Shown one piece after another: positions 1 through 42,201 of a stretch of DNA of 42,201 nucleotides. Numbering within the stretch: position 1 is the stretch's first letter; each line of letters opens with the position of its first letter. Below the pieces are notes generated by a model. The model had not been told where the DNA came from and did not search any database. It saw nothing but the letters and a program-made list of their open reading frames with translations. The stretch lies in IMG/VR virus record IMGVR_UViG_3300020034_000039, positions 1-42,201 of that record. One strand, given 5' to 3'. A program made the translations under genes and the position numbers. The DNA is from a virus.

Positions 1-153
1 GAGACCCGAAAACAATAATAAGGGCCGGGGCGGGATACCTCTTGACAAATGGATCAAAAAATATTTATGCTAAGCAAAGCAACACATAAATATTTTTTGA
101 TCCATTTGTCAAGAGGTATCCCGCCCCGGCCCTTATTATTGTTTTCGGGTCTC
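1..153. repeat. Perfect 69-bp inverted repeat with 15-nt loop at the window start
   Basis: Bases 1-69 are the exact reverse complement of 85-153, with bases 70-84 as loop. The match begins at the first base of the window. The arms carry GC-rich outer parts (about 21-35) and AT-rich inner parts. Each arm contains a TTGACA box directed towards the loop. A stem this long and perfect is far beyond an ordinary terminator. It could be a terminal hairpin (telomere-like), a single-strand origin or single-strand promoter, or an inverted-repeat assembly artefact. No protelomerase was recognised. Confidence 0.95.
42..71 (+). promoter_or_regulatory. Sigma70-like promoter inside the left palindrome
   Basis: TTGACA at 42-47 is followed by 18 bp and TATGCT at 66-71, so transcription would start near the loop and run right through the second arm towards the early genes. 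Because of the palindrome, the same -35 box also exists on the minus strand (107-112), firing left into the loop with a weaker -10 (TATGTG). The consensus match is good for the plus strand. Activity is inference. Confidence 0.5.
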
Positions 154-453: not shown

Positions 454-1104
454 ATGTTCAATACGATCCCTGATACAAAAGACTCGCTCCTCCTAACTGA
501 CATCTACAAACCAAAGCGGACAGCTGATTTCGTCGGACTGGAAAAGCCTAAAAAACTCGCCCTGGCACTGGCAAAAAAGCCCTTCAGCTCTTATTACATC
601 TTTCGCGGACCGTCTGGAATTGGAAAGACAACTTTCGCCTTTGCTATGGCTGAAGAGATTGGAGCGGAGGTGCATCATATTCCTTCAAAATTTTGCACTG
701 AAGCGGAGCTGGAGCGAACCCACAGTGAATGCTTTTATATGCCATCACAGGGAAAAAGATTTCATATGATTATCATCGACGAAGCGGACCTAATGACGAA
801 AGCATCGCGCGATTGTCTCCTTTCGATGATGGATGGAACGAGACCAGCTCCAGACACAATTATCGTCATGACATCAAATGACGTGGAAAAATTCGAAGAT
901 AGATTTATCTCACGATGCCAGTCTTACAACTTCAGCTCACAAGCCACGCAGAAAGACTCAGCAGCCTTACTCGCGCGCGTATGGGCCGCTGAAGCTCCAA
1001 AGGATGCAATCGCGCCAAACTTCGCGCGGATTGTAAAAGATGCCAGCTCTAATATCCGTATGGCTCTTAACGCACTTCAGCAAGAATTAACGCTTGTTTC
1101 GTAA
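454..1104 (+). CDS. Clamp-loader-like AAA+ ATPase (RFC small-subunit type)
   Basis: This 216-aa protein has the ordered motifs of an RFC/gp44/DnaX-type AAA+ module: Walker A GPSGIGKT (52-59), Walker B IIIDEAD (106-112), sensor 1 in MTSND (139-143) and the SRC arginine-finger motif (153-155). A short helical tail resembling a lid domain follows. Clamp loaders open sliding clamps at primer ends using ATP. It is shorter than typical RFC subunits (about 320 aa) and lacks the C-terminal collar domain, so it may act as an inhibitor, an alternative loader subunit or a helper of the host loader. No polymerase or clamp gene accompanies it. The start has a clear AGGAG 10 bp upstream and sits behind leader copy 1. 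The AAA+ assignment is firm; the clamp-loader role is inference. Confidence 0.85.
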   Translation: MFNTIPDTKDSLLLTDIYKPKRTADFVGLEKPKKLALALAKKPFSSYYIFRGPSGIGKTTFAFAMAEEIGAEVHHIPSKFCTEAELERTHSECFYMPSQGKRFHMIIIDEADLMTKASRDCLLSMMDGTRPAPDTIIVMTSNDVEKFEDRFISRCQSYNFSSQATQKDSAALLARVWAAEAPKDAIAPNFARIVKDASSNIRMALNALQQELTLVS

Positions 1105-1135
1105 AATTTGCTAACCATTTCACGTCATGTTCGTA

Positions 1136-1156
1136 TATAGTTATAGTTATAGTTAT
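1136..1156 (+). repeat. TTATAG hexamer repeat before the DUF932 gene
   Basis: About 3.5 tandem copies of TTATAG lie 10 bp upstream of leader copy 2. A similar tract occurs at 2988-3006, and its reverse complement lies in the divergent promoter at 39201-39224. The tracts contain -10-like hexamers and may be promoter or operator sequences. Confidence 0.7.
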
Positions 1157-1165
1157 TCAACGTTA

Positions 1166-1188
1166 ACGGCCCATAGCGGCCCCAAACT
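1166..1188 (+). promoter_or_regulatory. Early-gene leader element, copy 2
   Basis: The core is identical to copy 1 (ACGGCCCATAGCGGCCCC plus AAACT). It is placed 22 bp before the start codon at 1211 and followed by AGGAG. Confidence 0.8.
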
Positions 1189-1210
1189 TCACCAACAGGA
1201 GATTCCACAA

Positions 1211-2086
1211 ATGCGTTCCTTTAACTCATCCTTCGTCAACGTCCTAGATGCATCTCAGCTCCGTTCTCTAGTACCGTCCGCTTATGCAACGGCCCCACAT
1301 GCATCGCGTTCCTCTCGCTACGCTTACATTCCTACGTCTGAAGTGATCGACGGTTTGATGGCTGAGGGGTTCGCACCTTTTAAGGCTGTGCAATCCAAGT
1401 CCCGCATCGAAGGTAAAACAGAATTTACAAAACACATGATTCGGTTCCGCCATGCGGATGCTATCGCGCGCGCGGACGGCAATATTCCTGAAGTTGTGCT
1501 GATTAACTCGCATGATGGAACATCCGCTTATAAGCTGCTATCCGGTATCTTCAGAATGATTTGCACTAATGGTTTGATTGTTTGCGAAAAGAATCTTGGC
1601 GAGCTATCTATTCACCATAAGGGAAATATCGTTAATCAGGTGATCGAAGGTAGTTTCGAAATTATCGGACAATCTCAGAAAGCTCTCGGCACGATTGAAA
1701 ATTGGTCAGCGCTGCAACTCACGTCAGGGGAACAAAATGCATTCGCGGAAGCGGCCCATTCTCTCCGCTTCGCTGATTCAGACGGCAAAATTGATACTCC
1801 CATCACTGCGGCCCAATTGTTAACTCCGCGTCGTATGGCGGATCGGTCTGAAAATTCAGCCTGGACGCGTCCAGCACCTGACCTGTACCGCACTATGAAT
1901 GTAGTGCAGGAGAACGTCATACGCGGAGGATTGTCCGCGCGTGCAATGGGTGACGGTCGGACGCGCGGACGCATGGTAACTACGCGCGAAGTACGCGGGA
2001 TAGATCAGGATGTCCGCTTGAATCGCGCTCTCTGGCAGTTAGCAGAACGTATGGCGGAACTGAAGGGAGTTAAATCAGCGGCTTAA
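1211..2086 (+). CDS. DUF932 family phage/plasmid protein
   Basis: This 291-aa protein matches the DUF932 (phage/plasmid-like protein) pattern. Its central segment around residues 100-150 reads VVLINSHDGTSAYKLLSGIF and is followed by CTNGLIV and an HHKGN motif, which are hallmarks of that family. The molecular function of DUF932 is not established; members are common on conjugative plasmids and phages and are usually near replication or anti-restriction genes. I chose ATG 1211 rather than the upstream ATG at 1127. It has AGGAG at the right distance and follows leader copy 2, whereas the 1127 start would translate the TTATAG repeat and the leader. It is the second gene of the early operon. Confidence 0.85.
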   Translation: MRSFNSSFVNVLDASQLRSLVPSAYATAPHASRSSRYAYIPTSEVIDGLMAEGFAPFKAVQSKSRIEGKTEFTKHMIRFRHADAIARADGNIPEVVLINSHDGTSAYKLLSGIFRMICTNGLIVCEKNLGELSIHHKGNIVNQVIEGSFEIIGQSQKALGTIENWSALQLTSGEQNAFAEAAHSLRFADSDGKIDTPITAAQLLTPRRMADRSENSAWTRPAPDLYRTMNVVQENVIRGGLSARAMGDGRTRGRMVTTREVRGIDQDVRLNRALWQLAERMAELKGVKSAA

Positions 2087-2987: not shown

Positions 2988-3006
2988 TAGTTATAGTTAT
3001 TGTTAT
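2988..3006 (+). repeat. TTATAG-type repeat before leader copy 4
   Basis: This is a shorter version of the 1136-1156 tract (TAG TTATAG TTAT TGTTAT) directly upstream of leader copy 4. Recurrence in the same relative position argues for a regulatory function. Confidence 0.6.
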
Positions 3007-3008
3007 TG

Positions 3009-3032
3009 ACGGCCCCATAGCGGCCCCAAACT
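3009..3032 (+). promoter_or_regulatory. Early-gene leader element, copy 4
   Basis: The same core as copy 1 with one extra C in the first GGCC block. It is followed by GAAGGAG and the start at 3052. Confidence 0.78.
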
Positions 3033-3051: not shown

Positions 3052-3300
3052 ATGATGTTCCTTACTCTTACCCCATCCAATAGCGAAAACGTTGCGGATT
3101 CCTATATGTTCGTCATCGGCAAAGATGTTGAAGCGGCCCAACCTTACCGTATGATCGGTTCGCCTATGCGCTTCGCATCCTTGCGCGATGCGGTAGAAGC
3201 GGCGGCATTCTGCGGTTATACGGTTTACCCTGACGGTCAGGTGATGTTCTTGCCTGACCTTGAACCCCAGTCATCTCTATTCCTCCGCGATGATGCATAA
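3052..3300 (+). CDS. Unknown small early protein, 82 aa
   Basis: The gene starts at ATG 3052 (a second ATG follows at 3055) with GGAG about 10 bp upstream and leader copy 4 before it. The product has no recognisable motif, signal or membrane span. A segment near residues 38-60 (MRFASLRDAVEAA, then GYTVYPDG) has the look of a small alpha/beta fold. It is acidic at the C-terminus. Function unknown. Because the gene shares the leader with four other early genes, co-regulation is likely. Confidence 0.7.
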   Translation: MMFLTLTPSNSENVADSYMFVIGKDVEAAQPYRMIGSPMRFASLRDAVEAAAFCGYTVYPDGQVMFLPDLEPQSSLFLRDDA

Positions 3301-3306
3301 ACGTTA

Positions 3307-3329
3307 ACGGCCCATAGCGGCCCCAAACT
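3307..3329 (+). promoter_or_regulatory. Early-gene leader element, copy 5
   Basis: Identical core to copies 1 and 2, including the preceding ACGTTA shared with copy 2. It is followed by AAAAGGAG and the start at 3348. Confidence 0.8.
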
Positions 3330-6015: not shown

Positions 6016-6359
6016 CCTCGGCCTCCGCTGTGCCGGGTAGATACGTGAAAGCTTAACCATCTCCAGCGATTCCACGGCTTGATGTGCTGCGGTGGCCGCT
6101 CGTCGCAGTGTGGGCATGTGCAGGGTACGCCGATGTGATTACCGTAGCGTCGTGCCGTAAACAAATGCTGCGACTCGGGCGGCAAACAACCTCGGAGGTA
6201 AGTCATGTTCATACGCCACGCTGCGGCATAGTTCTTGGAATCTGCCGGAGGTAACTGCAATAAGGGCTTCGGGGATGCCATCTGTATGACCTTGCCAGTC
6301 TTCTTTGTGGCCGTTGCTGGGGGCTGCGATGGTGATGGTTTGCGCTTGGCTTGGCTCAA
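6012..6359 (-). CDS. Single C2H2-like zinc-finger protein
   Basis: The frame ends with CPHC, a 19-residue spacer and the segment WLSFHVSTRH, giving C-x2-C-x19-H-x4-H. The second half closely resembles finger 2 of the neighbouring three-finger protein (GLSVHVGTKH), pointing to a related finger. The end is fixed by an ATGA overlap with the next gene. The start is uncertain. TTG 6359 has a good GGAGAG site but overlaps the upstream gene by about 220 bp. ATG 6281 and ATG 6212 are shorter alternatives with weaker sites. The overlapping C-terminus of the upstream gene also looks genuine. Confidence 0.6.
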   Translation of the reverse strand: MSQAKRKPSPSQPPATATKKTGKVIQMASPKPLLQLPPADSKNYAAAWRMNMTYLRGCLPPESQHLFTARRYGNHIGVPCTCPHCDERPPQHIKPWNRWRWLSFHVSTRHSGGRG

Positions 6360-6786
6360 TTTCTCTCCTCTGGTTTATGTTGGGTCGTAGGGCTGTGATT
6401 TGGTCGTGCTTCTTACGTATATGCAGGGCTAGACCGCCTTGGTTCTTCCCCACAAATTCGCATCGTGGACACTGGAACGCGAAATTTTCGGCTTTTGGAT
6501 GATCTCCGGCCTTCATCTGCGCGGCTTTCAGTTGTTCGGCCATATGCTTGGTTCCAACATGGACGGAAAGACCTTGCGCGGTTTTGGCCGGGAATCCGCA
6601 GTAGGGGCATTGGTTCGGCTTCGGATTCGCTGGCGGCTGATTCGCTTTCAGATATTTATTAACCAGTACGGATCGTGATATGCCTCCAATGCCGTGAGCC
6701 TTCTGGCGGTGAACGGCCAACAATTGCGGGGTTGTGTAAATCATCGGGCAGTCGATACAGCTAAACATCTTTTTTTTAGTCGTCAA
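6139..6786 (-). CDS. Three-finger C2H2 zinc-finger protein
   Basis: The 215-aa product has three regular fingers, each C-x2-C-x12-H-x4-H: Cys10/Cys13/His26/His31, Cys60/Cys63/His76/His81 and Cys106/Cys109/His122/His127. The first and third fingers begin with an aromatic residue two before Cys1, as in eukaryotic C2H2 fingers. A basic, Gln-rich linker and a helical C-terminus follow. I choose TTG 6786: it has AAAGGAG at ideal spacing and overlaps the upstream TGA, whereas ATG 6768 lacks a site. It probably binds DNA or RNA as a regulator or counter-defence factor. Such multi-finger C2H2 arrays are unusual in phages. Confidence 0.8.
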   Translation of the reverse strand: MTTKKKMFSCIDCPMIYTTPQLLAVHRQKAHGIGGISRSVLVNKYLKANQPPANPKPNQCPYCGFPAKTAQGLSVHVGTKHMAEQLKAAQMKAGDHPKAENFAFQCPRCEFVGKNQGGLALHIRKKHDQITALRPNINQRREIEPSQAQTITIAAPSNGHKEDWQGHTDGIPEALIAVTSGRFQELCRSVAYEHDLPPRLFAARVAAFVYGTTLR

Positions 6787-7106
6787 GCGTTCTCCTTTTG
6801 GGCTTTCTCTTTTGCGCGTTGCCCCCACTCCATCCCCAGCCGAAAAGCCTCCTCCGGCGCGGGGTGGGTGCGGCCAAATATGGGGTGCTCGGTATCGAAC
6901 AATTCATATATCTTGTCTGCGAAGTCGGCGGGGTAGTAACCACAGTAATATCCGATGTTGTTTAGAACGATCTTCTTAGCCTCGGCGCGTTTGTACTCCA
7001 GCACCTTCACCATCTCGTCTACCTGCTCCTTGACGATGGCGGCGGCCTTGGCTTTGGTGAAGTCGTCGGCGGCGGCGAGCTGCATGATTTCACTAAGGCT
7101 TCGCAT
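6783..7106 (-). CDS. Unknown helical protein, 107 aa
   Basis: ATG 7106 has a strong AGGAGGAG site inside the end of the upstream gene, overlapping it by 14 bp. The product is mostly helical (ADDFTKAKAAAIVKEQVDE and EYKRAEAKKIVLNNIGYY) with a conserved-looking GYYPADFADKIYELFD segment. The C-terminus ends in a charged helix. No metal motif or membrane span. Function unknown. Confidence 0.7.
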   Translation of the reverse strand: MRSLSEIMQLAAADDFTKAKAAAIVKEQVDEMVKVLEYKRAEAKKIVLNNIGYYCGYYPADFADKIYELFDTEHPIFGRTHPAPEEAFRLGMEWGQRAKEKAQKENA

Positions 7107-8003: not shown

Positions 8004-9398
8004 TTACGCTTTGACACTTGCCGCGCCTTTCTTCTTCGCTGGCTTCTTCGTTACGGGCTTGTCGTCGCCTCCATGCTGCGGCTCCGGCTCATCGTTCACG
8101 GCCTTGACTTCGCCTTCTTCGAGGTACACGCCAACGTCTCCGGTTTCGTCCACAACCTCTACGAACAACTGGAAGTCTTCCTTCATGCACCTTTCTGCAA
8201 TGATCGCCATGCTTAAACTATCGAGCAAGCTACCATCCTTGATCCGCATCACGCGAAGCTCGGGGTTGTCTGCCATGCCGATAGCAACGCTGGCGCGTAT
8301 CTGATCGGCGTTCGATACCTGGCCAAACGGTAAGCCTTCAAAGATAACTTCCTCATTGCCGAACGCCAGGCCGGGGATGGGAAATTTGGCCTCTTCGATG
8401 GCCTTGGTCTGCTTGGTCTCCAGCTCGTCCAGCATGTCCGATATGGTGTCCACGCGCTTGCTGATGCCGTCAATCTCCTTTTGCAGCTCGTCACGCTGGC
8501 CGCGCTTGTCGATGGCTGCATTGACGATCCGTGCGGCGGTGATGGCTTCGGTGTAGTGCGCGGAGTTCTTCGGCTCCGGCAACGGCTCCCACTTTGCAAT
8601 AGTCTTCAGCGTTCCCGCGTAGATGGCTCTGTCTTCCTTGGCTTCGGCCTCCATTTGTGTGATCTGTGCGCGTAGGGCTTTGATCCTTTCTTCCTTGGCT
8701 TCGACGCTCTTTATCAGGTCGTCAGTCTTGCGGGTAATCTCCTCCCGCTGCCGCTTTTCGCGCTCGATCCGCGCGTTGTGCTCTCCCACCTCGCCCAGCT
8801 CTTTGAGTAGCTTGGCCTCGTCGCGCTTCTCCATCGGTAGATTGTCGGGAATCTGGATCGCATCGCGGCGGGTCTCCAGAGCCTTGATTTCCTTCTTCAG
8901 TTCGCGGCGTTTCAAATAGTCGGGATTCTTCTCGATGTTGAGCGAGTTGGGGTCAACATCGGGTAACACAATTTTGTAGAGCGTCCGAAACTGCTGCTCC
9001 GGCTCCATGCGGATAAACTCCAGCGGGTCGAAGCTGTTGGGGCCTACCAGTTTATTGAGAAATTCCTGGGGTCCTTGCAAGCGGCTCTTGCCATCGGTCG
9101 GTTCGACGGTCAGGAATCCGTTTTTCGATCCCCCTTCGGTGAAGCGGCGCCGGACGATCCATTCCGCCTTTCCATCATTGCCTATGCCAACCTCGATGAT
9201 GGATTTCTGTGCGCCTTTGCGGACGGGCTTGGATGGTACGTTGCGGGTTCCGCGCAAACACATTTCGATTGCGTCTAGCACACTGGTTTTGCCGCTGCCG
9301 TTGGCTCCGCTGATACGGTTTACAAATTCATTCGGCGTGATATCTATAACCCGTATCCGCTTGAAATCCTGAATTTTTAGGCCAATCACCCTCATCAT
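8004..9398 (-). CDS. Rad50/SbcC-like SMC-family ATPase, 464 aa
   Basis: The N-terminus shows the AAA_23 pattern: a conserved LKIQDFKRI beta-hairpin, then Walker A GANGSGKTS at 31-39. A long charged coiled-coil spans about 165-330. The C-terminal lobe carries SLLDSLSMAIIAERC and a hydrophobic FVEVVDE strand in the place of Walker B/D-loop elements. The lobe ends in a Lys/Pro-rich tail. Family members bind DNA ends or act with nucleases in recombination and repair. Size fits phage SbcC-like proteins. A dedicated Mre11/SbcD partner is absent; the adjacent endonuclease VII gene (stop immediately before this start) could be the functional partner. The canonical Walker B is not obvious, so I infer function from overall layout. 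Confidence 0.8.
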   Translation of the reverse strand: MMRVIGLKIQDFKRIRVIDITPNEFVNRISGANGSGKTSVLDAIEMCLRGTRNVPSKPVRKGAQKSIIEVGIGNDGKAEWIVRRRFTEGGSKNGFLTVEPTDGKSRLQGPQEFLNKLVGPNSFDPLEFIRMEPEQQFRTLYKIVLPDVDPNSLNIEKNPDYLKRRELKKEIKALETRRDAIQIPDNLPMEKRDEAKLLKELGEVGEHNARIEREKRQREEITRKTDDLIKSVEAKEERIKALRAQITQMEAEAKEDRAIYAGTLKTIAKWEPLPEPKNSAHYTEAITAARIVNAAIDKRGQRDELQKEIDGISKRVDTISDMLDELETKQTKAIEEAKFPIPGLAFGNEEVIFEGLPFGQVSNADQIRASVAIGMADNPELRVMRIKDGSLLDSLSMAIIAERCMKEDFQLFVEVVDETGDVGVYLEEGEVKAVNDEPEPQHGGDDKPVTKKPAKKKGAASVKA

Positions 9399-9944
9399 TT
9401 AGCTTCTCTCTTTCAGATACACAATTGCTGCTTCTAATGTTGCGATGTTGTCTTTGGCGAGGCCCAACATCAGATTGCATCTGTTACATAAAATTCCACG
9501 TACTTTGCTTGATTTATGACAGTGATCTATATGGAATCCTCTTCCTGCACTGTCTTTAAATTCTTCGATTTTGCAGATACCGCAGCCTCCTTGGTTTTTC
9601 AGAAGTTCATCAAACGACTCTGGGGTTAATCCATATCTTTTTAGCTGTTGCAATCTACTCTTGATGCGGATTTTTTCAGGGTTTCTATCTTTCCATTCTT
9701 TTGATCTTCTGGCGAGGTTGGCCCTGATTTGTGGGTTGGCATCTTTTTGTCGCTTTCGTTGTTCAGCTATTTTTGCTCTGTCCCTTATCGGTGGGTTAAG
9801 CCGATACTTTTCTTTGCGTTTTGCACTTAACACTTCAAAGTTTTTTTCACAGTATTCGCGGTGCGCCTGTCTTAATCTTTCTCGATTTTCAGCTCTATAT
9901 TCGCGATTGTAGGCACTGGTTTTTTCTTTGTCCTTATATCCCAT
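9399..9944 (-). CDS. Recombination endonuclease VII homologue, 181 aa
   Basis: The C-terminal half carries the endonuclease VII zinc/HNH signature: CGIC at 121-124, HIDHCH at 138-143 and CNRC at 153-156, followed by LGLAKDN and a final helix. The first 100 residues form a highly charged, Arg/Lys-rich extension with RAKIAEQRKR-type repeats that may bind DNA. T4 endonuclease VII cleaves Holliday junctions and branched DNA before packaging. The start overlaps the preceding stop (TGATG). A second resolvase, RusA, is encoded at 38760-39200. A free-standing HNH homing role is the alternative, but its in-operon position favours a phage housekeeping role. Confidence 0.85.
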   Translation of the reverse strand: MGYKDKEKTSAYNREYRAENRERLRQAHREYCEKNFEVLSAKRKEKYRLNPPIRDRAKIAEQRKRQKDANPQIRANLARRSKEWKDRNPEKIRIKSRLQQLKRYGLTPESFDELLKNQGGCGICKIEEFKDSAGRGFHIDHCHKSSKVRGILCNRCNLMLGLAKDNIATLEAAIVYLKERS

Positions 9945-14286: not shown

Positions 14287-14423
14287 GCTTGTTTCTCCCA
14301 AACTTTTAGGGCATAGCAACAATTTATGCAGAGCTTCTCTAGGTTCACTGGATCAAAAAAAGTTCCGCTGCATGGCATCCCACATTTTTTGCAGGACACA
14401 ATTGGATTGGCTTGTTCATTCAT
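14283..14423 (-). CDS. Mini zinc-ribbon protein, 46 aa
   Basis: This ORF fits exactly between endolysin and hydrolase with ATGA overlaps at both ends. It encodes CKKCGMPC and a second CINCC cluster 20 residues later, a compact zinc ribbon. The product is too small for enzymatic function. It may be a regulator or structural clip in the lysis cassette. The double coupling makes it very likely to be translated. Confidence 0.72.
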   Translation of the reverse strand: MNEQANPIVSCKKCGMPCSGTFFDPVNLEKLCINCCYALKVWEKQA

Positions 14424-14953
14424 AGCTGTACTCGATTCTTCACCCATCCAAAGATGAAGCTTTCGTTGGCGCGGCGGCTCTCAGTGATCGCAAGGTAGCG
14501 GTCGCCCTGGGTGCAGTTGATCGCCTTCAGCAAAACCTCTTCGCCGTCCTTGCCTCGCGCCTTGATGAAGGTGTCAAGGGCTTGGCGGGTGCGCGGCCCT
14601 GTGATTCCGTCAACGGTCAGCTCCGGCTCTCTGCGATTGAAGGCGTTCAACCAACGTTGCAACGTTCGTCCTGCGAAGCCCGGTCCCATGTTTACCCCCA
14701 TGTCGGTGAGCTTCACGGCGATGGGCATGGAGGCAAGCGCGAGCTGTGCGAATCCCGGCTTGTGCCAGTAGTCGGCCTTGAGGATGCGGATAGCTTCGTC
14801 GCGAGGAAGGTCGCGCATGTGGCCCATGTATCCGTTGTCTCGGGCTACGCGCTCGGTGATGCCCCAATTCGTCGCGCCTCCCCGGTCGTCAGGATGGTCA
14901 ACGAATCCGCCTTCCTTGCCGAGTATTTCTTCGATGATGGTGTCGAGTGTCAT
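14420..14953 (-). CDS. Endolysin, GH108 N-acetylmuramidase
   Basis: The N-terminus has the glycoside hydrolase 108 motif KEGGFVDHPDDRGGATNWGI, in which Glu14 is the expected catalytic residue. The C-terminal half (about 95-177) matches the peptidoglycan-binding domain that accompanies this family (VDGITGPRTRQALDTF). Full length is 177 aa, usual for the family. It has no signal peptide, so it needs a holin to reach the wall. AAGGAG lies 6 bp before the ATG. Neighbours are a second wall hydrolase and mini membrane proteins. Confidence 0.9.
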   Translation of the reverse strand: MTLDTIIEEILGKEGGFVDHPDDRGGATNWGITERVARDNGYMGHMRDLPRDEAIRILKADYWHKPGFAQLALASMPIAVKLTDMGVNMGPGFAGRTLQRWLNAFNRREPELTVDGITGPRTRQALDTFIKARGKDGEEVLLKAINCTQGDRYLAITESRRANESFIFGWVKNRVQL

Positions 14954-21196: not shown

Positions 21197-21700
21197 TCAC
21201 CCTTCCCTTCTTGTAGGCTGTGGCAACGCTTCCCAATGCTCCGTGTGGCATCCGGGGGGTACAAGTGGGGTAATTTCCCGTACCAGCTCTGACTGGCTCT
21301 CCCTGAAGCCAAGCCGTCGTTTGGCAAAAGCGTTCAATTCGGGGCCGTCGGTGTCAAAAATGATTTCGCGGAAACGGTTTTTCCTGAACATCGATTCAAT
21401 CCACGCAAATCCCTTCAATAAAGCGAGCCTGTTGCGGTGCTTTTCTTCCTTGGTATCTGAGGCTGCAAACTGGATTGACAATCTCACCGCAACCTGAGTC
21501 TTGAAATAGAGCTGGACGTGGCCCTGCTCGTCCTCCAAAGCCCATGCATCCTCACCCGGCACAAGCTTTAGGAAATAATCGGGCGTCATCCTGCCTTTAT
21601 GGAAAGCGTCGTTCTCTATAAGGCTGTCCAGAAAAACCCGGTCGCCTTCATTCATGGGCCGCACGACATATTGATCGAAGTGAAAATGCTGGTCACTCAT
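21197..21700 (-). CDS. GNAT-like protein in tail operon, 167 aa
   Basis: ATG 21700 (GGAGGC site, ATGA overlap) starts a protein with the layout of GCN5-type acetyltransferases: an initial VVRPMNEGDRVFLDSLI strand-helix, central beta strands (AWALEDEQGHVQLYF, RLSIQFA), a helix (LALLKGFAWIESMFRKNRF) and REIIFDTDGPELNAFAKRRLGF near the end. The canonical Q/R-x-x-G-x-G/A acetyl-CoA loop is not evident. Proteins of this fold between tail and internal-protein genes are common in podophages, where they are thought to be structural or assembly-related. Enzymatic activity is doubtful. Confidence 0.65.
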   Translation of the reverse strand: MSDQHFHFDQYVVRPMNEGDRVFLDSLIENDAFHKGRMTPDYFLKLVPGEDAWALEDEQGHVQLYFKTQVAVRLSIQFAASDTKEEKHRNRLALLKGFAWIESMFRKNRFREIIFDTDGPELNAFAKRRLGFRESQSELVREITPLVPPGCHTEHWEALPQPTRREG

Positions 21701-27694: not shown

Positions 27695-28858
27695 CTAGGT
27701 CACTGCTGACACAGAATCGATGTAGCGGATACGTTGAACGGGGTCGGGTGGAAGGGTCGCGGTGTACATGGTGTTGTAGCTCGCGAAGCCCCCAATCATT
27801 CTTGATGGATCGTAGCCACTCGGCTCCGATAGTCTTCGTACCCAGATGGCCAAATTTCTCCAGTCGCCATCGCCTATCTGCGTGTTCTCCCGCGCTCCGA
27901 AAGACACTCCAATCAACCCGTCGCGGCCTACAACGTAGGTTCGCAACGCGGTGAATGTAGTGGTGTCATAGTTGGGAGTCTGGTGAACAAGCGTGCTCTG
28001 GAAGAAGCTGACTCCACCCCAGTCGATCAAGGGAATGGTGTCGCCGTCAGGACTTGCGAGTTCGGTCAACCGCTCATTGCCCTGTGGTGTGCGCTTCACC
28101 ACGTCCACCAAAGAGTTGTTGGTTTTATCGAGCCAGATATCCCCAACAATGTGAGGGTGCATGACTCCGGTGTAACGTCCTTCCGCAAAGGGAAGGGCAT
28201 TGACTCCGGCAAGTGACTGCGCGGCGATAATGATATCGTCCGAAGTCATGGGGTCGGCGGCGGGTTTTTCTATCGCTACTGACGGGTCAATAACGCTGGC
28301 TCCATCCGCCGTGTTCTGGAGAATGGTGTTGATGACCTGGGCCATGCGATAGGCCATCTGAACGCCAAGAGCCTCTAGGGTGGGATCGATGGCAGTCTGG
28401 AGAGCATACGTTGATATGTTCATGTAGTCGGCGTAATTGCCCATGATGGACGTGTTAGAAACTACGGTCGCGGTGAGACCCGTTTGGATCGTGCCTTCAG
28501 GTGCCTGGGTGATCGGCGGGGCCGGAAGATTCTGGTACATGTAGAGCACGAGACGATTACCCGAGTTCTCCTCGATGGCGCGTCGAGACGTGCATCTGAC
28601 CCACGGAGTATTCGCTTTTAAGTTCTCCACAAAGATTTTGTCGTAGGTGGTAACGACAGACTGCGGGAGATTCGTCGTGAGGTTCGACGCCGGACTGACG
28701 CCAACACACAACACGCCGTTGGCCGCATGAGTCCGACCAACGTTGCCCGTATAGAAGTAAGCAGAGCCGCCGAGGGCGCACACAAACTCTATGAACGGAA
28801 CCAGATATTTCTCAAAGAACGTTCTGCCGCGTTGTGCGGCAACTGAAGTTGATCGCAT
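27695..28858 (-). CDS. Major capsid protein, N4-gp56 type, 387 aa
   Basis: The central region PPITQAPEGTIQTGLTATVV, then IMGNYADYMNISTYALQTAI, follows the diagnostic pattern of N4-gp56 family capsid proteins (pro-glu-gly-thr segment, then a YADY/S motif and a long spine helix AYRMAQVINTIL). The length fits the family. It lies directly downstream of the scaffold and follows GGGGGACGG upstream of ATG 28858. HK97-fold shells of this type occur in N4-like and other podo- and siphophages. Assignment is by pattern, not alignment. Confidence 0.83.
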   Translation of the reverse strand: MRSTSVAAQRGRTFFEKYLVPFIEFVCALGGSAYFYTGNVGRTHAANGVLCVGVSPASNLTTNLPQSVVTTYDKIFVENLKANTPWVRCTSRRAIEENSGNRLVLYMYQNLPAPPITQAPEGTIQTGLTATVVSNTSIMGNYADYMNISTYALQTAIDPTLEALGVQMAYRMAQVINTILQNTADGASVIDPSVAIEKPAADPMTSDDIIIAAQSLAGVNALPFAEGRYTGVMHPHIVGDIWLDKTNNSLVDVVKRTPQGNERLTELASPDGDTIPLIDWGGVSFFQSTLVHQTPNYDTTTFTALRTYVVGRDGLIGVSFGARENTQIGDGDWRNLAIWVRRLSEPSGYDPSRMIGGFASYNTMYTATLPPDPVQRIRYIDSVSAVT

Positions 28859-30775: not shown

Positions 30776-30984
30776 TGGCTCACCTCCGCGCATAAACGGT
30801 CTAGGCCGGGATTGATCTCTGTCGATAGGGCTATATCGGAAAAGTTGTAGTAGTCGGCATATTGGCCGATGGTGGTGTAAATTTTTATGCCCCAGCCATC
30901 ACGCGGCGCAAAAAAATAGGTTGGCTTGACGATCACAGCGGGGGCCACGAATCCCATCATGGAAAGAAAGCTGCGGCGGTTCAC
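30763..30984 (-). CDS. Tat-signal-like protein with capsid-like segment, 73 aa
   Basis: The N-terminus MNRRSFLSMMGFVAPAVIV carries a twin-arginine motif (RRSFL) and a hydrophobic stretch, as in Tat signal peptides. The C-terminal part GQYADYYNFSDIALSTEINP and GLDRL resembles the capsid segment GNYADYMNISTYALQTAIDP with TLEAL. The gene starts with GTG 30984 overlapping the portal stop (GTGA), preceded by a perfect GGAGG. An exported or membrane-anchored fragment of capsid-like sequence is odd. It could be a superinfection or capsid-assembly factor, or the Tat motif may be coincidental. Confidence 0.6.
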   Translation of the reverse strand: MNRRSFLSMMGFVAPAVIVKPTYFFAPRDGWGIKIYTTIGQYADYYNFSDIALSTEINPGLDRLCAEVSQWQR

Positions 30985-33104
30985 TGTCCACCTCCAGACG
31001 GGCCGAAGAACTGGCTGGAGTTAATCGCGTGGGTGTCGGCGGTGCGTTCGGCGAAGCTGGCGGCACGTTGCAGCGGCGATTCGATAACGCTCTGGTGGGT
31101 CTTGTCCACGGCATCGACGGCGATCCGTCCCGCGATCTTCTTGTCTTCCAGCGCCATCTTGAATTGCTGCTCTTGCTGCTGCTGTGCGGTGGCTGCCTGG
31201 GCCTTCACTACACCCGGCGATTGCGAGACCATCATCTGCGCTTCCTGCGGGGTCATCTGCACAATCAGGTCTTTTTGGTTCTTCCACTCCGACATATCCA
31301 GCACCATGTTGACGAGTTCCAGCGCGTTTACCTTCCATCCGGTTTGTCCTAGCTGCTGTACGAGAGCCTGATTGCCCAACACCTCCAGTAGGAAGGGAAG
31401 GGCTTGCGCCATGCGGTTGCGAGCCGCGAGCCGAGTACCCGCCAACGTGTCGAACTTGACGGGCGCATCCATAAAGTCTCCGAAGTCAACTACAAGATCC
31501 TGTGCCCTGTCGCCAAGAATCGCGCGGATTTCGGAGATGGGCATAAACTCCTTCACCATCGCCCATAGAAATTTGAGATAGGGAATAAAAACCCCGTCGA
31601 TGAATCGTTCGACGGGGCTTTGCAGCCGTCCGCTGGATGCGGCACTTATCATTCCGGCTCCCGTACCGGAACGTCCGATACTGGAGCCGCGACCGGGGAG
31701 AGAACCTTGGACGCTGGCCTGATCCGCTCCGGTCGCGCCTTCGGAGCTGGAGATAGCCGCCTGTATCGCTCGCCATGCGTCGGCGGGTACTTGCGGTTGT
31801 GGCACAAGCGAGATAGCGCGGCTGGCGTCCTGACCTTCCACAACGCGGATGCCCCCGAGGCGTCGGCGTTGATCCTGAGTAGGCACATTGGCTCCGCGAA
31901 GGATGGTGTACTCGGGATTGACTGCGAAGGCCAGGATGTCAAGGATGGCGTTTATCATGCCCTGCTCTACACGCTGGTCGGCTCCGGCGATCCGGCCTAT
32001 CCCCATCCCGTACCCGGCGTTATCGATGTCCCAATAGTTCGCGGCGAAGAACGGTTTGTCGGGCATCCGGTGAGGGCCGTTGCGGAGCACAACTTTCTTT
32101 TGCAACACCACCCGCACATCGGTCTCGCTCCACCACTCCAAAATCTCCATCGGCTGCAATAACGGGTCTTCGGAATACTCGAAGTCTTCCCGTGCGGCAT
32201 GGTGGATGCTGGAGTTCGATTGCATCGCCTCTTCTACCCCGCCGATGCCTTCGGTCTGCTCGGTGGAGTCGGGCCGGAAGATGAAGCGCAAAACTTCGTC
32301 CGAGGGGATGTCATAGCTCGGGTTGTCGCGGAGCTTGGTCAGGTCGTCGTAGTTCACCCAGCGGCGGCGGATGATGAATCGGGCTTTCCATATCTGGTTG
32401 GGGCTGTTCCATGTGGGATCGATGAAGACGGTTCCCAGCTCGCACTTCTCAAAAACCGGCCGATTTTTCGTTATCTCGACATCGACCACTTCAAACTCAT
32501 CCGATTGCTTGGTAAACACCGTCATGGGATCGCCAAGCGGCATACTCACCTGGGCCGGGGCTTGCTTGCGCTGATAGCGGCTCTCGACGCGGGTTATGGT
32601 CTCCCACCCTCCCATGTAGATCACGGTTCCCTGATTGACCATCCCTTGAATGCCATAGCTGGCTTCCTGCTTCATGTGGATGTCGTCAATCAGTTCGGAA
32701 ATCAGCTCCGTCCACGCTCGCGCCGTGTCCTGCTTCACCGAGGGCCGGGGCCGGATCATGAACGGCGTCGGGTCAGAAAAAATCGCCCCTGTGATTGCGG
32801 GGGCGATGGAATTTGTTTGTTTGGCGACCGTGTACCTTGACACGTTCGCACGAGCCACTGCGGAGCCTTCAAAGACACTGAGGCTGCGCGGCGATTGATA
32901 GAGTAAGTCCGTCTCCGTCCACATCAGCGGCCAACGGCGGTCGTTTAGCCAGGTGTTAGCGCGGTTGAAGTCCTGCACCACAATGGAGAGGACGGCTTGA
33001 TCTGTGTACTTCGGATCGACGGCGGGATCGGTGGAGGTTTGGACGTCCTCCATGAGTACGGGGCGACTCCAAACACCGTCCGATATAAGGGTCGCAGTGG
33101 CCAT
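30981..33104 (-). CDS. Portal protein, 707 aa
   Basis: Length and pattern fit podovirus portals. There is an N-terminal helical/Trp-rich part (DDRRWPLMWTETDLLY), a long mixed wing domain, and a segment typical of portal stems (MPDKPFFAANYWDIDNAGYG). A long Gln-rich helical C-terminal barrel region follows (AQMMVSQSPGVVKAQAATAQ and onward). It is the first gene of the minus-strand head operon after the HNH cassette. GAGG lies 5 bp before ATG 33104. The portal forms the dodecameric DNA entry channel and motor dock. Confidence 0.8.
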   Translation of the reverse strand: MATATLISDGVWSRPVLMEDVQTSTDPAVDPKYTDQAVLSIVVQDFNRANTWLNDRRWPLMWTETDLLYQSPRSLSVFEGSAVARANVSRYTVAKQTNSIAPAITGAIFSDPTPFMIRPRPSVKQDTARAWTELISELIDDIHMKQEASYGIQGMVNQGTVIYMGGWETITRVESRYQRKQAPAQVSMPLGDPMTVFTKQSDEFEVVDVEITKNRPVFEKCELGTVFIDPTWNSPNQIWKARFIIRRRWVNYDDLTKLRDNPSYDIPSDEVLRFIFRPDSTEQTEGIGGVEEAMQSNSSIHHAAREDFEYSEDPLLQPMEILEWWSETDVRVVLQKKVVLRNGPHRMPDKPFFAANYWDIDNAGYGMGIGRIAGADQRVEQGMINAILDILAFAVNPEYTILRGANVPTQDQRRRLGGIRVVEGQDASRAISLVPQPQVPADAWRAIQAAISSSEGATGADQASVQGSLPGRGSSIGRSGTGAGMISAASSGRLQSPVERFIDGVFIPYLKFLWAMVKEFMPISEIRAILGDRAQDLVVDFGDFMDAPVKFDTLAGTRLAARNRMAQALPFLLEVLGNQALVQQLGQTGWKVNALELVNMVLDMSEWKNQKDLIVQMTPQEAQMMVSQSPGVVKAQAATAQQQQEQQFKMALEDKKIAGRIAVDAVDKTHQSVIESPLQRAASFAERTADTHAINSSQFFGPSGGGQ

Positions 33105-34365: not shown

Positions 34366-34572
34366 CCCTGGCATCCAAACGGCAATGTTGTGCCGTGCTG
34401 CAAGTTCTGCAATTTTGCAAAAATGGATTCTACGCTCGCTGAGTTTCTGGAGAGAATTGCTCGGTTTGGATCACGGCTCACCGAAAGCGACGTGTACGCC
34501 ACGGCTGAAAATATTAGAGCGATTAGCGCTCTAAACCAGGAATCCAAACCTCAAACCCTTGTGAGGTCATAG
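34366..34572 (+). pseudogene. Truncated second HNH endonuclease (C-terminal remnant)
   Basis: In frame after the TAG at 34363, the sequence reads GNVVPCCKFCNFAKMDSTLA and EFLERIARFGSRL. It matches the C-terminus of the intact HNH protein (GNILPCCFFCNRAKDDWPLV, EFLERLKRFGSTL). Only the last third of the enzyme is present, without the catalytic GIDRVD part. Its tail overlaps the terminase stop antisense. It looks like the scar of an earlier homing insertion or a recombination between two HNH copies. Confidence 0.72.
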
Positions 34573-36256
34573 TTTCATCTTCCAACCTCGGCTCCTCCAC
34601 TATGACCTCTTCCGGCTCCGGCTCCGGTCGGGCATAGGCTCCGCGTCCGTAAATCATGTTGTATTTGTCTCTCTCCCGCGCCATCTCCCACGCGCTCTCT
34701 TCTTCGCTGTTCTCGGCGGCGATGGACTGCGGCAGGTTCGCGGCCACTTGTGCGACCACATCCGGCAAACCGTTTTCGTCGATCATGCCGTACTGAACGA
34801 ATCCCTGAATCAACGGCTTCAGCTTCACAATACCGTTTGAGAACATCAGCCGTGACGATGCGATATCGGCCTCGATGTTGCGGATGAAGATGTCGCGCTC
34901 GCCGGAGTCCTCGACATATGGCGTCCAGTTGATATGCACGTCCCAGCCCACGGTCAGCGCGTAGTTGTGGATTGTCGGTTGCATCAGCCGCGCACCTGGG
35001 CTTTCCTCGATGGAGACCTCATGCAGCCCATACTTCCGCGCAGACGTGACAATCATTCGCGCCAATTCTGATGGCTTGTAATGGCCATGCATCACCTCCG
35101 CGATTGTCATGCGATTGCGGTGCATAACCCCTACGGCTCCGTTGGTCGTCTTCCATCGCATCTTGCGACACTCCATCCTCCAGTGGATGAAGGTCTCGCC
35201 TTCGACGGGTACGCGATCCTCGTCAATCATGGCCTCCAGCATTTGCATCTCGGAAAACACCACCTCGGCTGATCCATAGGTATCGAGCATCAGTTGAGAC
35301 ATAAACGATTCATACCCGCCTTCGTACTCCTCGCGGAGATAGTCGTAGGGCAGGATCGACGGAAACAGCAGCTCCACGTCTTCCTCGTCGGGGAATCCGT
35401 TGGGGTCAAGCCGTTCGCCACTCTTCAGCCGCATGGCTGGCTTGTAGACGCGACGGTAGGTTCCCGGCCTCGCGTTCAATACCTCTTCCGCAAACACATC
35501 CCCCGGCCCATAGCAGGTTCCAATCTTCAGCTCGATCCCGGTGGGCTTCAGAATCTTCCGGCTCAGTTTGTAGCGTTTCGATATCTTCAGCCGGGCGTCA
35601 TAGGTCTCTGAGTTGCGATTGTCGTGTACGTCGTCGATCACCAGAATGTCGGGATGCCATCCAGTCGTTGACGATCCCAGCGAGTTGCCCCATAGCAACG
35701 GCTCTTTGATCTTGGGTTCCGTCTGCCGCAGAGCTGCGGTAAAGGTTCCGGTCTCCGGCTCCAGGTCGATGCATAACTCAGGGAACAGGGCTTGAAACAG
35801 TGTCGGCGGTCGATTTTTGGGTTTGTAGAAATGCGCCGATATCTCATCCACTAGCGCGAAGGCTAATTTCTTCGACGCGCACATTATCAGGATGGCGATG
35901 GTGAAGAAGTAATGCAGGATGTATTGGATGATGTTGGCGGCGTCCAGCGTCGTCTTGAACGTGCCGCGCGGGTAGAGCAGGGAATTGCGCCGGGCTATCC
36001 CGTCACTCAGTTGCGAGACGTTTTTGTTCGGGTCTTTCTCGGGGAAGAACGCAATAGCTTCATGGTGAACGTCCTCGGTGATCTGGCAATAACCTAGAAC
36101 GTAGCAAAGCGCGAGCAAGTTGAATTTGCATAGCCGCCTCCCGTCCTCGCGCAGCTCCTCATCCTCTTGCGTTAAGACGGTAAGTTCCGCTCGCCAAGCC
36201 TTGTTATCGGCCTTCTCCTGCGTTGGATCGCGTAGCTTGCGCCAGTTGAAATGCAT
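34523..36256 (-). CDS. terL: Terminase large subunit, 577 aa
   Basis: The ATPase half has a deviant Walker A, LLYPRGTFKTT (residues 93-103), as in many TerL proteins. Walker B is DILVIDDVHD (203-212), followed by a motif III-like segment (IELKIGTCYG). The C-terminal half should hold the RNase H-like nuclease. Candidate acidic residues include the VSIEESPGARL and VVFSEMQMLE segments. An acidic tail follows (EPEPEEVIVEEPRLEDE). TerL packages DNA through the portal and cuts it at initiation and headful or site-specific ends. ATG 36256 overlaps the upstream TGA. The HNH cassette separates it from the portal. Confidence 0.85.
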   Translation of the reverse strand: MHFNWRKLRDPTQEKADNKAWRAELTVLTQEDEELREDGRRLCKFNLLALCYVLGYCQITEDVHHEAIAFFPEKDPNKNVSQLSDGIARRNSLLYPRGTFKTTLDAANIIQYILHYFFTIAILIMCASKKLAFALVDEISAHFYKPKNRPPTLFQALFPELCIDLEPETGTFTAALRQTEPKIKEPLLWGNSLGSSTTGWHPDILVIDDVHDNRNSETYDARLKISKRYKLSRKILKPTGIELKIGTCYGPGDVFAEEVLNARPGTYRRVYKPAMRLKSGERLDPNGFPDEEDVELLFPSILPYDYLREEYEGGYESFMSQLMLDTYGSAEVVFSEMQMLEAMIDEDRVPVEGETFIHWRMECRKMRWKTTNGAVGVMHRNRMTIAEVMHGHYKPSELARMIVTSARKYGLHEVSIEESPGARLMQPTIHNYALTVGWDVHINWTPYVEDSGERDIFIRNIEADIASSRLMFSNGIVKLKPLIQGFVQYGMIDENGLPDVVAQVAANLPQSIAAENSEEESAWEMARERDKYNMIYGRGAYARPEPEPEEVIVEEPRLEDETMTSQGFEVWIPGLER

Positions 36257-39224: not shown

Positions 39225-39464
39225 ATGAGCCTAAGAAAACAACCACGAAAAGCAGGTCATGGGACGGGGCAGGTCAGCCTGAAGACTGAGGGCCATGTCA
39301 TTCAGACCATCCGCATGAGAGTGGAAGATAACAACAAAGTTCGACGTGCGGCTGAGTTGGCCGATATGTCAATAAACTCCTGGGCTGCGGATGCGCTCCG
39401 CGAAGCCGCAACCTTGGCACTCACAAAGAAAAGGACAACAAAAAATGGCAAAGCCAGCTCCTAA
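39225..39464 (+). CDS. Ribbon-helix-helix protein, 79 aa
   Basis: A basic N-terminus is followed by HVIQTIRMRVEDNNKVRRAA and a helix ending SINSWAADALREAATL, an RHH/Arc-type fold (beta strand TIRMRV, then two helices). It heads the plus-strand replication operon and probably autoregulates from the adjacent promoter. Downstream lies the paralogue of the coiled-coil protein found next to the other RHH gene (10383-10562). A start at 39225 without a ribosome site suggests leaderless translation. Confidence 0.75.
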   Translation: MSLRKQPRKAGHGTGQVSLKTEGHVIQTIRMRVEDNNKVRRAAELADMSINSWAADALREAATLALTKKRTTKNGKASS

Positions 39465-40219: not shown

Positions 40220-40466
40220 TGCGAGACCTATTGACCATTGGGACGATTACTTAACGCGCATACCGGGGTCTGGGATAGTCGCACTTGGCGATAAATCTTT
40301 AGAGCGCGTGTGCGCGCACACCTTCTTGATGGGTATGCACGCTGGGCTAAATTATTTATGCGACAACGCCGCTCTTGATGAAGATTTTCTTGAGCGAATA
40401 GAGTCTCTTCAGAAGGATACTTTGGAGGATGCGGAAAAGTTATATGCGATTTGGAGGCGTGGATAA
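40203..40466 (+). CDS. Unknown helical protein, 87 aa
   Basis: The start overlaps the previous gene by 17 bp and has GAGGATGAGG upstream; a second ATG lies at 40209. The product is helical with SLERVCAHTFLMGMHAGLNY and a charged C-terminus. Its stop overlaps the RepA start (TAATG), so it may set the rate of RepA translation. No family recognised. Confidence 0.6.
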   Translation: MRMKDSARPIDHWDDYLTRIPGSGIVALGDKSLERVCAHTFLMGMHAGLNYLCDNAALDEDFLERIESLQKDTLEDAEKLYAIWRRG

Positions 40467-41413
40467 TGTCGATCTTCGATGAAGCAGCCCCAATGCCGAT
40501 TAGCGCGGTTGGTGAGCGTTATTGGAATACGGTTGCGACGATGGGGGAGCCTACCGTTGATGAGATTCGGTACATGCACGTCATCTTCGCGCAGACCGGA
40601 TTTCCCTATAGTGAGGTTCCATTTGGACAGCCCTTCCAACGGAGAAATGGAAGTGCTGTCCTTGGTCTCACCCCTGGGTATTTGATGAACCCCCTGACGC
40701 GGCGGCTTGAGCTTCAGGGGTTGCCTTACGGCTCGATCCCGCGCCTCTTGATGATTCACATTTGCAACGAAGCGAAGCGTACCAGCAAGAGAAGTATTGA
40801 CATGAATCGAAGCGTGACAAAGTTTCTGAAGGACGATCTTTTAATTAGTCCTTCAGGTGGCGTGAGAGGGGGTTTGACAGCGTTCAAAAAGCAGATGAAC
40901 CGGGTCGCGGCTACGCCTATGACTATCGGCCTGAACTATCTTACTGGCCGGGGTGGTCGTGGGGCCGCGACGTTCAAGCCTACCCCTGCGATTGTCGAGT
41001 ACAAAGTTTGGGATGAAGACAGCCTTGTTGACAAACCGATGTGGCATACGGAGGTCACTCTTTCCGAGTCTTTTTTTGATGGGGTTCTTCACCATTCAGT
41101 CCCGCTCGATGATAGGGCGATTCAGGCTTTGCGGAAGTCTCCCCTTCAACTTGATGTCTATTTCAATCTCGCCCAGCGACTTCCACGGATGCGCGGAAAT
41201 GAGGTTCAAAAGATTTCATGGGCGAGATTGAGAGAGCAGATTGGACAGGAGTATGCAGAGTTGAAGATGTTTAGATTCAGATATTTGCAAGCTTTAGAGA
41301 AAGTAAAGCGCGTTTACCCTGATGCGAATATCACCTATAATGCTGATGGTATTGAACTTAGACGTTCAAAACCACCCATCCCATCAAACCTTCTGCTACC
41401 ATTCGGAGAGTAG
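40466..41413 (+). CDS. repA: RepA-family plasmid replication initiator, 315 aa
   Basis: The middle of the protein, GYLMNPLTRRLELQGLPYGS then IPRLLMIHICNEAKRTSKRS and LLISPSGGVRGGLTAFKKQM, matches the plasmid-encoded RepA family (single-strand-independent, iteron-type initiators). ATG 40466 has GGAGGCG upstream; earlier in-frame Met at 40451 lies in the previous gene. Directly downstream are three 20-bp iterons and DnaA boxes, as expected for a RepA target. RepA would bind iterons, melt the origin and recruit the host helicase. This marks the element as a phage-plasmid or a satellite with an episomal state. It is the only clear replication initiator here. Confidence 0.85.
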   Translation: MSIFDEAAPMPISAVGERYWNTVATMGEPTVDEIRYMHVIFAQTGFPYSEVPFGQPFQRRNGSAVLGLTPGYLMNPLTRRLELQGLPYGSIPRLLMIHICNEAKRTSKRSIDMNRSVTKFLKDDLLISPSGGVRGGLTAFKKQMNRVAATPMTIGLNYLTGRGGRGAATFKPTPAIVEYKVWDEDSLVDKPMWHTEVTLSESFFDGVLHHSVPLDDRAIQALRKSPLQLDVYFNLAQRLPRMRGNEVQKISWARLREQIGQEYAELKMFRFRYLQALEKVKRVYPDANITYNADGIELRRSKPPIPSNLLLPFGE

Positions 41414-41415
41414 AG

Positions 41416-41590
41416 TTTTCCACAGAAACCTGTGCATAACCATAAGTTTTCCACGCTGAAACTGAAACCGCGTCATTTCGCGGTTTTTGGAGTTTTCCAC
41501 GCTGAAACTGAAACCGATCCACGCTGAAACTGAAACCGCTTAAAGGAAGCCTGTATTTAACCTGTATTTAGGGTAAAGCCCTGTATCAGG
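41416..41590. other. Iteron-type origin of replication
   Basis: Immediately after repA there are a DnaA-box-like TTTTCCACA (41416-41424) and a perfect DnaA box on the minus strand (TTATGCACA, 41431-41439). Three identical 20-bp iterons CCACGCTGAAACTGAAACCG follow at 41451-41470, 41497-41516 and 41519-41538 (22-bp spacing between the last two). Short repeats CCTGTATTTA lie at 41550-41559 and 41561-41570, with a partial third at 41580. The AT-rich tract 42060-42201 could be an unwinding element but is distant. The arrangement fits a RepA-dependent origin. Confidence 0.85.
41465..41488 (+). terminator. Intrinsic terminator of the repA operon, overlapping iteron 1
   Basis: An 8-bp stem (41465-41472 with 41479-41486) with a 6-nt loop is followed by TT, within GGTTTTTGG. 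The stem shares its left side with the end of the first iteron. RepA binding could therefore influence read-through. Moderate terminator. Confidence 0.6.
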
Positions 41591-41647: not shown

Positions 41648-41935
41648 ATGAAAGACCGGATCGGGAACAAGTTGGAAGTCGGAGACCGGGTTTTGGTGTC
41701 ACTGCCGGAGTCTGCCATCCTGGGCTTCGTCGCGGAAGTGAAGGAAACGGGGATGGTGGCGCGAGTGCGGGGCGGTGGAGCGGACACGGCTCCCGGTCAC
41801 GTCATGGTCTCCTGCGTGATCGCGCTGCCCGTTGACAGCCTCATGGACGCGGTTGCTCAAGCCGTGAAGGTCTACGACCCCTCTAGGGCGTCGGAGCCAT
41901 CAAAAGGTACGCTAGATGCTCCCAAGCCGAACTAA
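41648..41935 (+). CDS. Unknown SH3-like small protein, 95 aa
   Basis: ATG 41648 follows GGAGGAGG. The first 60 residues (NKLEVGDRVLVSLPESAILG, then FVAEVKETGMVARVRGGG) read as a small SH3-like barrel with GDRV and short strands. A Pro/Ser/Lys-rich tail follows. It is an isolated gene between the origin and the right end, transcribed away from repA. Role unknown, possibly plasmid maintenance. Confidence 0.7.
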   Translation: MKDRIGNKLEVGDRVLVSLPESAILGFVAEVKETGMVARVRGGGADTAPGHVMVSCVIALPVDSLMDAVAQAVKVYDPSRASEPSKGTLDAPKPN

Positions 41936-42147
41936 TCGCACCTGAAGCATTGGGAAGCGTTGCCACAGCCTATTCAAAAACTATGAAGACGGCATAAAAC
42001 AGGGTCTCGCGCGTAGGCATAAAGAGCGAACGGGCTTGACAACAGTAAAGTATTGTGTCAAGTAGAGCAGATAAGTAATCCAATCACGTAACAAATAAAT
42101 AAAATAGACAAAGAGAAGAGAAAAATGCTAGCTTAGGAACAGAAAAG
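41936..42147. other. AT-rich right-end region without genes
   Basis: No gene. The first 100 bp are mixed. From about 42035 an inverted CTTGACA...TGTCAAG (42035-42041 and 42056-42062, 14 bp apart) resembles an operator or paired -35 boxes. The same CTTGACA occurs in both arms of the left palindrome. From 42060 the DNA becomes A-rich with no clear promoter. It may be an unwinding or regulatory zone. Confidence 0.55.
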
Positions 42148-42201
42148 TTTTTTATTAAATTTTTCACCTCACCGGGAGAACTGTCAAAATTTAATAAAAA
42201 A
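42148..42201. repeat. AT-only 16-bp inverted repeat ending at the last base
   Basis: Bases 42148-42163 are the exact reverse complement of 42186-42201, with a 22-nt loop. The match ends exactly at the window end, just as the left palindrome begins at base 1. The stem is composed only of A and T, so it could be a terminator-like hairpin, a terminal structure or a coincidence of cut position. If the genome is circular, the two palindromes would lie side by side. Confidence 0.9.

Follow-up and report, generated by a model that had tools for sequence, protein, structure and literature searches.

The DNA analyzed here is the 42,201-base IMG/VR virus record IMGVR_UViG_3300020034_000039, which we call the window; the records compared carry G-numbers, the window being G000. 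Our starting point was a claim concerning positions 40466-41590, where an earlier note had described a plasmid-type RepA with iterons in a phage genome. The gene at this locus encodes a protein of 315 aa that matches the Pfam family RepA_C (PF04796; E 6e-20, 72.7 bits against a curated cut-off of 26) and resembles RepA in 903 plasmid records, the best of them at ~37% identity across 94% of its length. Its predicted structure (mean pLDDT 74) lies nearest to the iteron initiators RepE and Pi in the PDB (Foldseek probability up to 0.98, E only near 0.01); a search of PDB sequences with the RepA profile returned no relative, and the fold search alone gave one. The assignment to the RepA family thus stands, as does the DnaA box, of which two were found with the form TTWTNCACA (Table 1). 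The iterons are indeed three identical copies, where none is expected by chance, and they measure 21 bp rather than the 20 bp first reported.

Table 1. Annotated features of the window. All telomere, hairpin and promoter designations are putative.
Feature	Position	Strand	Remarks
Left fold-back copy (read-around of putative left hairpin)	1-69	+	Perfect 69-nt complement of 85-153
Outward promoter, left tip	42-71	+	-35 TTGACA (42-47), 18 nt, -10 TATGCT (66-71) ending in loop
Left hairpin loop, 15 nt	70-84		CTAAGCAAAGCAACA
Left telomere stem as genome sequence	85-153	+	Contains CCCGCCCC block, conserved at relatives' left tips
Clamp-loader-like AAA ATPase, first gene from left end	454-1104	+	phrog_5846, phrog_168; dnaX-like
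DUF932 phage/plasmid-like protein	1127-2086	+	PF06067, E 3e-41
SbcC/Rad50-like N-terminal ATPase	8004-9398	-	phrog_1499; kept in 13/13 long relatives
GH108 endolysin	14420-14953	-
Major capsid protein, remote N4-gp56 type	27695-28858	-	phrog_1357
Portal protein, SU10 type	30981-33104	-	PF23899
Terminase large subunit	34523-36256	-	phrog_38
RusA-like Holliday-junction resolvase, candidate telomere resolvase, 146 aa	38760-39200	-
Small putative DNA-binding protein, divergent from resolvase	39225-39464	+	Weak HicB/antitoxin-type Pfam matches
RepA initiator (RepA_C family)	40466-41413	+	Pfam, plasmid RepA matches, predicted fold
DnaA box	41416-41424	+	TTWTNCACA
DnaA box	41431-41439	-	TTWTNCACA
Iterons, 3 identical 21-bp copies	41450, 41496, 41518 (span 41450-41538)	+	TCCACGCTGAAACTGAAACCG; spacing 46, 22
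Right-terminal 95-aa protein	41648-41935	+	Conserved in 12/13 long relatives
Outward promoter-like site near right end	42105-42134	+	TAGACA, 18 nt, TAGCTT
Right telomere stem	42148-42163	+	Perfect 16-nt inverted repeat
Right hairpin loop, 22 nt	42164-42185
Right fold-back copy, to last base	42186-42201	+

The virion and lysis module described earlier could be recognized as terminase, portal, capsid and endolysin genes. Among the ORFs of the window, scanned against Pfam, no integrase, DNA polymerase or primase was recognized, in line with the earlier reading. The capsid protein reached 25.9 bits (E 5.5e-6) against TIGR04387, under the cut-off of 60, and is thus a remote relative of the N4-gp56 family rather than a member. 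Two features had been missed by the earlier note: the clamp-loader-like AAA protein at the left, whose gene is present in 12 of the 13 long relatives, and fold-backs at both contig ends. The gene for the small putative DNA-binding protein recurs in 11 of the 13, and the structure model of the 95-aa protein was of low confidence and gave no useful match. Other observations concern the remainder of the genome. Five leader-like blocks, AACGGCCCATAGCGGCCCCAAAC, are spread among the + strand genes on the left, most of them immediately ahead of a gene (389-433, 1144-1188, 2143-2187, 2988-3032, 3285-3329), and are probably a shared upstream or ribosome-binding region. A protein with several C2H2 zinc fingers, unusual for a phage, is encoded at 6139-6828. 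The homologue of recombination endonuclease VII at 9399-9944, matched in none of the 13 long relatives, is possibly a second junction-cutting enzyme beside the RusA-like one. Finally, a 34-nt inverted repeat (91%) links the virion block to the right end (21214-21247 and 41939-41972), and part of it also occurs in relatives.

A plasmid joined to a phage by mis-assembly could be ruled out. When we searched with RepA, two close relatives emerged, each on a contig that also encodes the capsid. Among 20 records reached via the capsid and RepA, RepA_C exceeded its cut-off in ten, nearly always close to a contig end, and repA accompanied the gp56-type capsid in the same place in at least ten related contigs. 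This synteny, together with iterons matched to RepA, excludes a chimeric junction. The pairing of a plasmid-type origin with a gp56-type podovirus module, which the earlier note had thought unusual, is therefore genuine and repeated in relatives, with the reservation that the capsid is only a remote kin of N4 gp56. Among 50,697 phage records, the window-type RepA was detected in a single one, an unannotated record of 3.9 kb.

The position held by RepA is an exchangeable initiator slot, and the rest of the phage is unchanged by the swap. Two relatives, G008 and G010, have an HTH_36 protein there, accompanied in G010 by a DnaC/IstB-type loader; G014 carries a gene similar to phage replication protein O, and in G004 and G009 weakly matching helix-turn-helix proteins replace RepA. 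The origin changes along with the initiator. In RepA_C relatives the iterons have diverged in sequence, and they keep a near-constant spacing (about 46 and 22) downstream of repA, plus a DnaA-type box; relatives with other initiators (G004, G008, G009, G010) have neither iterons nor such a box downstream. Such joint change is the mark of a working origin, and from this anatomy we consider it very likely that RepA and the iterons start replication through the host replisome. As judged from its family and the layout of the site, RepA would bind the iterons and, with host DnaA, open the adjacent origin and load the host replisome. The locus resembles that of RepA_C iteron plasmids, such as those of Xanthomonas citri, in its RepA (the ~37% match) and in the iterons and DnaA boxes downstream of repA. 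Unlike this genome, those plasmids lack virion genes, and no partition or mobilization genes were found here. Relatives keep this gene order with a different initiator, so finding RepA is not enough to show a plasmid stage.

We examined the ends of the window together with those of the related contigs. The first 153 bases fold with a z-score of -26.7; this value and the perfect 69-nt arms led us to reject chance inverted repeats at the window ends. Fold-backs also occur at both ends of G008, at the left end of G007, at the right end of G004 and at both ends of G029, where the right stem contains mismatches; the left loops of G007 and G008 are 14 nt long. Overall, 14 contigs share the left tip and 12 the right tip. 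Ten contigs break off within or at the equivalent left loop (G003, G004, G006, G009, G013, G021, G041, G045, G048, G053), and the 12 right ends terminate just past a shared promoter-like motif. A search of the whole viral collection, 2.9 million contigs, for the left-tip motif gave five occurrences, all records already in our comparison set rather than new members, and all five lay within ~80 nt of a contig end, with none internal. By inspection, eight contigs of 40.9-44.7 kb (G000, G004, G006, G008, G009, G013, G021, G029) span the genome from tip to tip, and 13 long relatives share one gene order and permutation, which begins with the clamp-loader gene on the left and finishes with the 95-aa gene on the right. 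Direct terminal repeats and circular permutation were discarded as explanations, as no repeat was found in the window and the gene order is fixed. We are highly confident that the genome is linear with fixed ends. In most relatives, sub-terminal GC-rich repeat arrays lie beside the left telomere (154-420 in the window), with a sequence that differs in each genome.

Fold-backs can also arise as artefacts, as in G016 (L063:1-95), where one lies at an internal contig end at which the otherwise identical G011 has ordinary sequence. We therefore measured their base rate: of the 22 shared termini, 7 have fold-backs, no more than roughly one in three, compared with 2 of 51 other contig ends (one-sided Fisher p = 0.002). 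Common positions and loop sizes across different metagenomes do not fit random snap-back. Judging by the fold-back contig ends at shared positions in the assemblies, both ends are probably covalently closed hairpins, and the genome looks linear and hairpin-ended rather than circular.

The left loop, moreover, seems to occur in both orientations. Over six uncorrected comparisons between genomes, based on few and short loops, the G004 loop resembled the loops of G007 and G008 in reverse-complemented form (p = 0.006 and 0.002), and the window's own loop showed no significant match to these two (p = 0.12-0.16). The short loop remnant in G003 also matches the G007/G008 reverse complement, and the G009 loop fits better when reverse-complemented. 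Copying of a hairpin followed by its excision from a cruciform would be expected to yield loops in flip and flop forms, whereas an open end would not.

A candidate for the cutting enzyme lies to the left of repA. Structures of E. coli RusA are found by the family profile of the RusA-like protein (E about 1e-7). The protein's residues D93, D95, K99 and D114, unchanged across all 15 sequences compared, align with E. coli D70, D72, K76 and D91, which we take to be the catalytic residues. RusA was detected in 22 of 33 records. Otherwise, the slot is occupied by DUF1064 in G004, G023 and G057, by a DUF1064-type protein (identified by eye) in G048, by a diverged RusA in G022, and by a protein that Pfam does not recognize in G026 and G027. 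DUF1064 is presumably a family of PD-(D/E)XK nucleases; that unrelated nucleases of the junction type replace one another at this position speaks for the activity being required. Both RusA and DUF1064 are common phage proteins, and other roles are possible. The ResT/TelK catalytic domain of protelomerases (PF16684) was absent from two sets of 21 and 24 records at E <= 1, a search that a strongly diverged protelomerase could escape. No ligase was found in the window.

The tips also carry sigma70-like promoter sequences. At 14 left tips, TTGAC-like and TATGCT-like hexamers 16-18 nt apart read outward, and by a mechanical scan the -10 box ends at the loop in 10 of the 14. Together they scored 118, whereas 300 shuffles averaged 103 and never exceeded 113. 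At the right, a comparable pair with 17-18 nt spacing is present in 11 of 12 ends, a descriptive count, as the pattern was drawn by eye from those same ends.

Taken together, the fold-backs, the shared tips, the lack of a recognizable protelomerase and the junction nuclease point to a linear genome with closed hairpin telomeres, resolved in the manner of poxviruses and rudiviruses rather than by an N15-style protelomerase. Under this model, forks would pass round the hairpins and yield head-to-head copies joined by long inverted repeats; outward tip promoters would help these junctions extrude into cruciforms; a junction nuclease encoded by the phage (in the window RusA, in certain relatives DUF1064) would cut them; and host ligase would close the nicks, so that each new hairpin could have its loop either way round. 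That the ends are regenerated by such a nuclease acting on extruded junctions is, in our estimate, nearly an even call, falling slightly on the side of doubt. We more tentatively propose that the tip promoters assist resolution or drive early transcription; alternatively, transcripts initiated at the tip could round the loop and read into the + strand genes beyond, beginning with the one at 454. Hairpin telomeres are a target of host Mre11-Rad50/SbcCD, against which N15 is protected by its TelN (PMC12624138); for this reason we speculate that the SbcC/Rad50-like ATPase may bear on hairpin protection by interfering with host SbcCD.

The earlier note had read RepA and the iterons beside the virion genes, with no integrase, as suggesting an episomal temperate state, and the window does combine a plasmid-type origin with virion genes, one of the marks of a phage-plasmid. 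A temperate phage whose prophage is kept by RepA as an episome, possibly linear and of the N15 kind, would account for this genuine origin, for the lack of an integrase (none over the cut-off in 27 records) and for the linear, hairpin-like ends. ParA-like AAA_31 genes also speak for it: they occur in 2 of 27 records, the more distant G024 (L305) and G022 (L306), and could mean that these two do have a plasmid stage. They are absent from the window, however, and so is an HTH_3 repressor; we found no CI-type repressor, HTH_3 being present in 3 of 33 records, and no ParB_N in any of 33. No protelomerase appeared in the 45 records, whereas telomere phages are defined by this enzyme together with SopA/SopB (PMC12042878). 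Nor did prophage or plasmid relatives come to light: a scan of 84,980 species genomes for terminase and portal, which relies on exact peptide stretches and reaches fairly close relatives only, gave none, and 72,556 plasmids contained no capsid relative. Given also the exchange of the initiator for O-like proteins, the step from RepA to an episome is not supported. We regard a plasmid prophage stage as a minority possibility, and the phage-plasmid explanation as a whole as unlikely.

The same initiator swaps, with O- and DnaC-type genes, would suit a purely lytic phage with a borrowed RepA and ordinary open ends (cos, terminal protein or short repeats), its fold-backs being snap-back artefacts of the library. 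Such an artefact is proven in G016, and Tunturi_3, the sole isolate related in both terminase and portal, is one of a group of viruses in which lytic infection was observed (PMC11924767). Yet the enrichment of fold-backs at shared tips, the loops of 14-15 nt at homologous places in three genomes, their seemingly double orientation, the mismatches in the right stem of G029 and the lack of a direct terminal repeat all weigh against open ends, and we consider this explanation distinctly improbable. A circular genome in which one long palindrome breaks every assembly would likewise leave inverted repeats at both contig ends, as assemblies do break at long perfect palindromes. Breaks would then be expected at the outer edges of the palindrome, but the contigs read across the stem and break off at or within the loop; moreover, in no contig are the two ends joined, and the left-tip motif was confined to the neighborhood of contig ends. 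A circle is thus scarcely credible. The explanation we prefer, in which the window covers nearly the whole linear genome, from end to end, of a soil podovirus that starts replication from RepA, has closed hairpin ends and resolves them with a phage junction nuclease, stands as a whole at an even balance of belief and doubt.

Several known systems share parts of this arrangement. Like the N15-type telomere phages (N15, PY54, phiKO2, NAR688), the window appears to represent a tailed phage with linear, hairpin-ended DNA, its own initiator and no integration. The virion DNA of N15-type phages has other ends, whereas here the virion genes lie between both telomeres on one fixed map. Their protelomerase and SopA/SopB (PMC12042878) also set them apart from this genome, in which none of these was found. 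Poxvirus telomeres are hairpins with unpaired bases that exist in flip and flop forms, have an adjacent promoter-like element and are processed by a Holliday-junction resolvase (PMC8956199). These four features would have counterparts here, going by the assemblies, in an unrelated virus with unrelated enzymes, a RepA/iteron origin and the host replisome; the promoter parallel is one of arrangement, not of kinship. The rudivirus SIRV2 likewise has a linear genome of a similar size class with hairpin ends, as proposed here, and a junction resolvase for which a role in cutting concatemers has been proposed; in vitro, its hairpin four-way junctions are cleaved to nicked hairpin ends that a ligase can seal (PMC3157427). 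SIRV2 differs in being archaeal and rod-shaped, and in its replication protein and resolvase family.

With regard to the host, the sole isolate with a related portal is Tunturi_3, a Tunturiibacter phage, a podovirus whose host is an acidobacterium (PMC11924767). The portal (36%) and terminase (25%) link the two podoviruses; unlike the window, Tunturi_3 measures 97.6 kb, was deposited as circular, and has primase/helicase and UvsX-like genes. The kinship of the portals tentatively suggests an Acidobacteriota host.

Extended to its relatives, our reading would describe a clade of soil podoviruses with linear genomes and hairpin telomeres produced by junction resolvases (RusA or DUF1064) without a protelomerase, in which host-type promoters at the hairpin tips would aid junction resolution or transcribe past the loop into the first genes; this is a tentative generalization, which we hold with somewhat less than even confidence. 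The literature consulted treats the protelomerase as both the defining mark of telomere phages and the handle by which they are searched for (PMC12042878), and our search for hairpin-ended phages without one returned nothing relevant from the open-access literature, with subscription papers and preprints outside its scope. The initiator swaps mean that a plasmid initiator is an exchangeable part of a phage, and that RepA alone is no proof of a plasmid lifestyle. If the clade does have hairpin ends without a protelomerase, tailed phages would possess a second way of making hairpin telomeres, and the phages that use it would have gone unseen in protelomerase-based searches. Tailed bacterial viruses would also be shown to have telomeres of the poxvirus kind, in which the junction-resolution model of poxviruses and rudiviruses could be tested with a RusA-type enzyme, a short palindrome and a sigma70 promoter.
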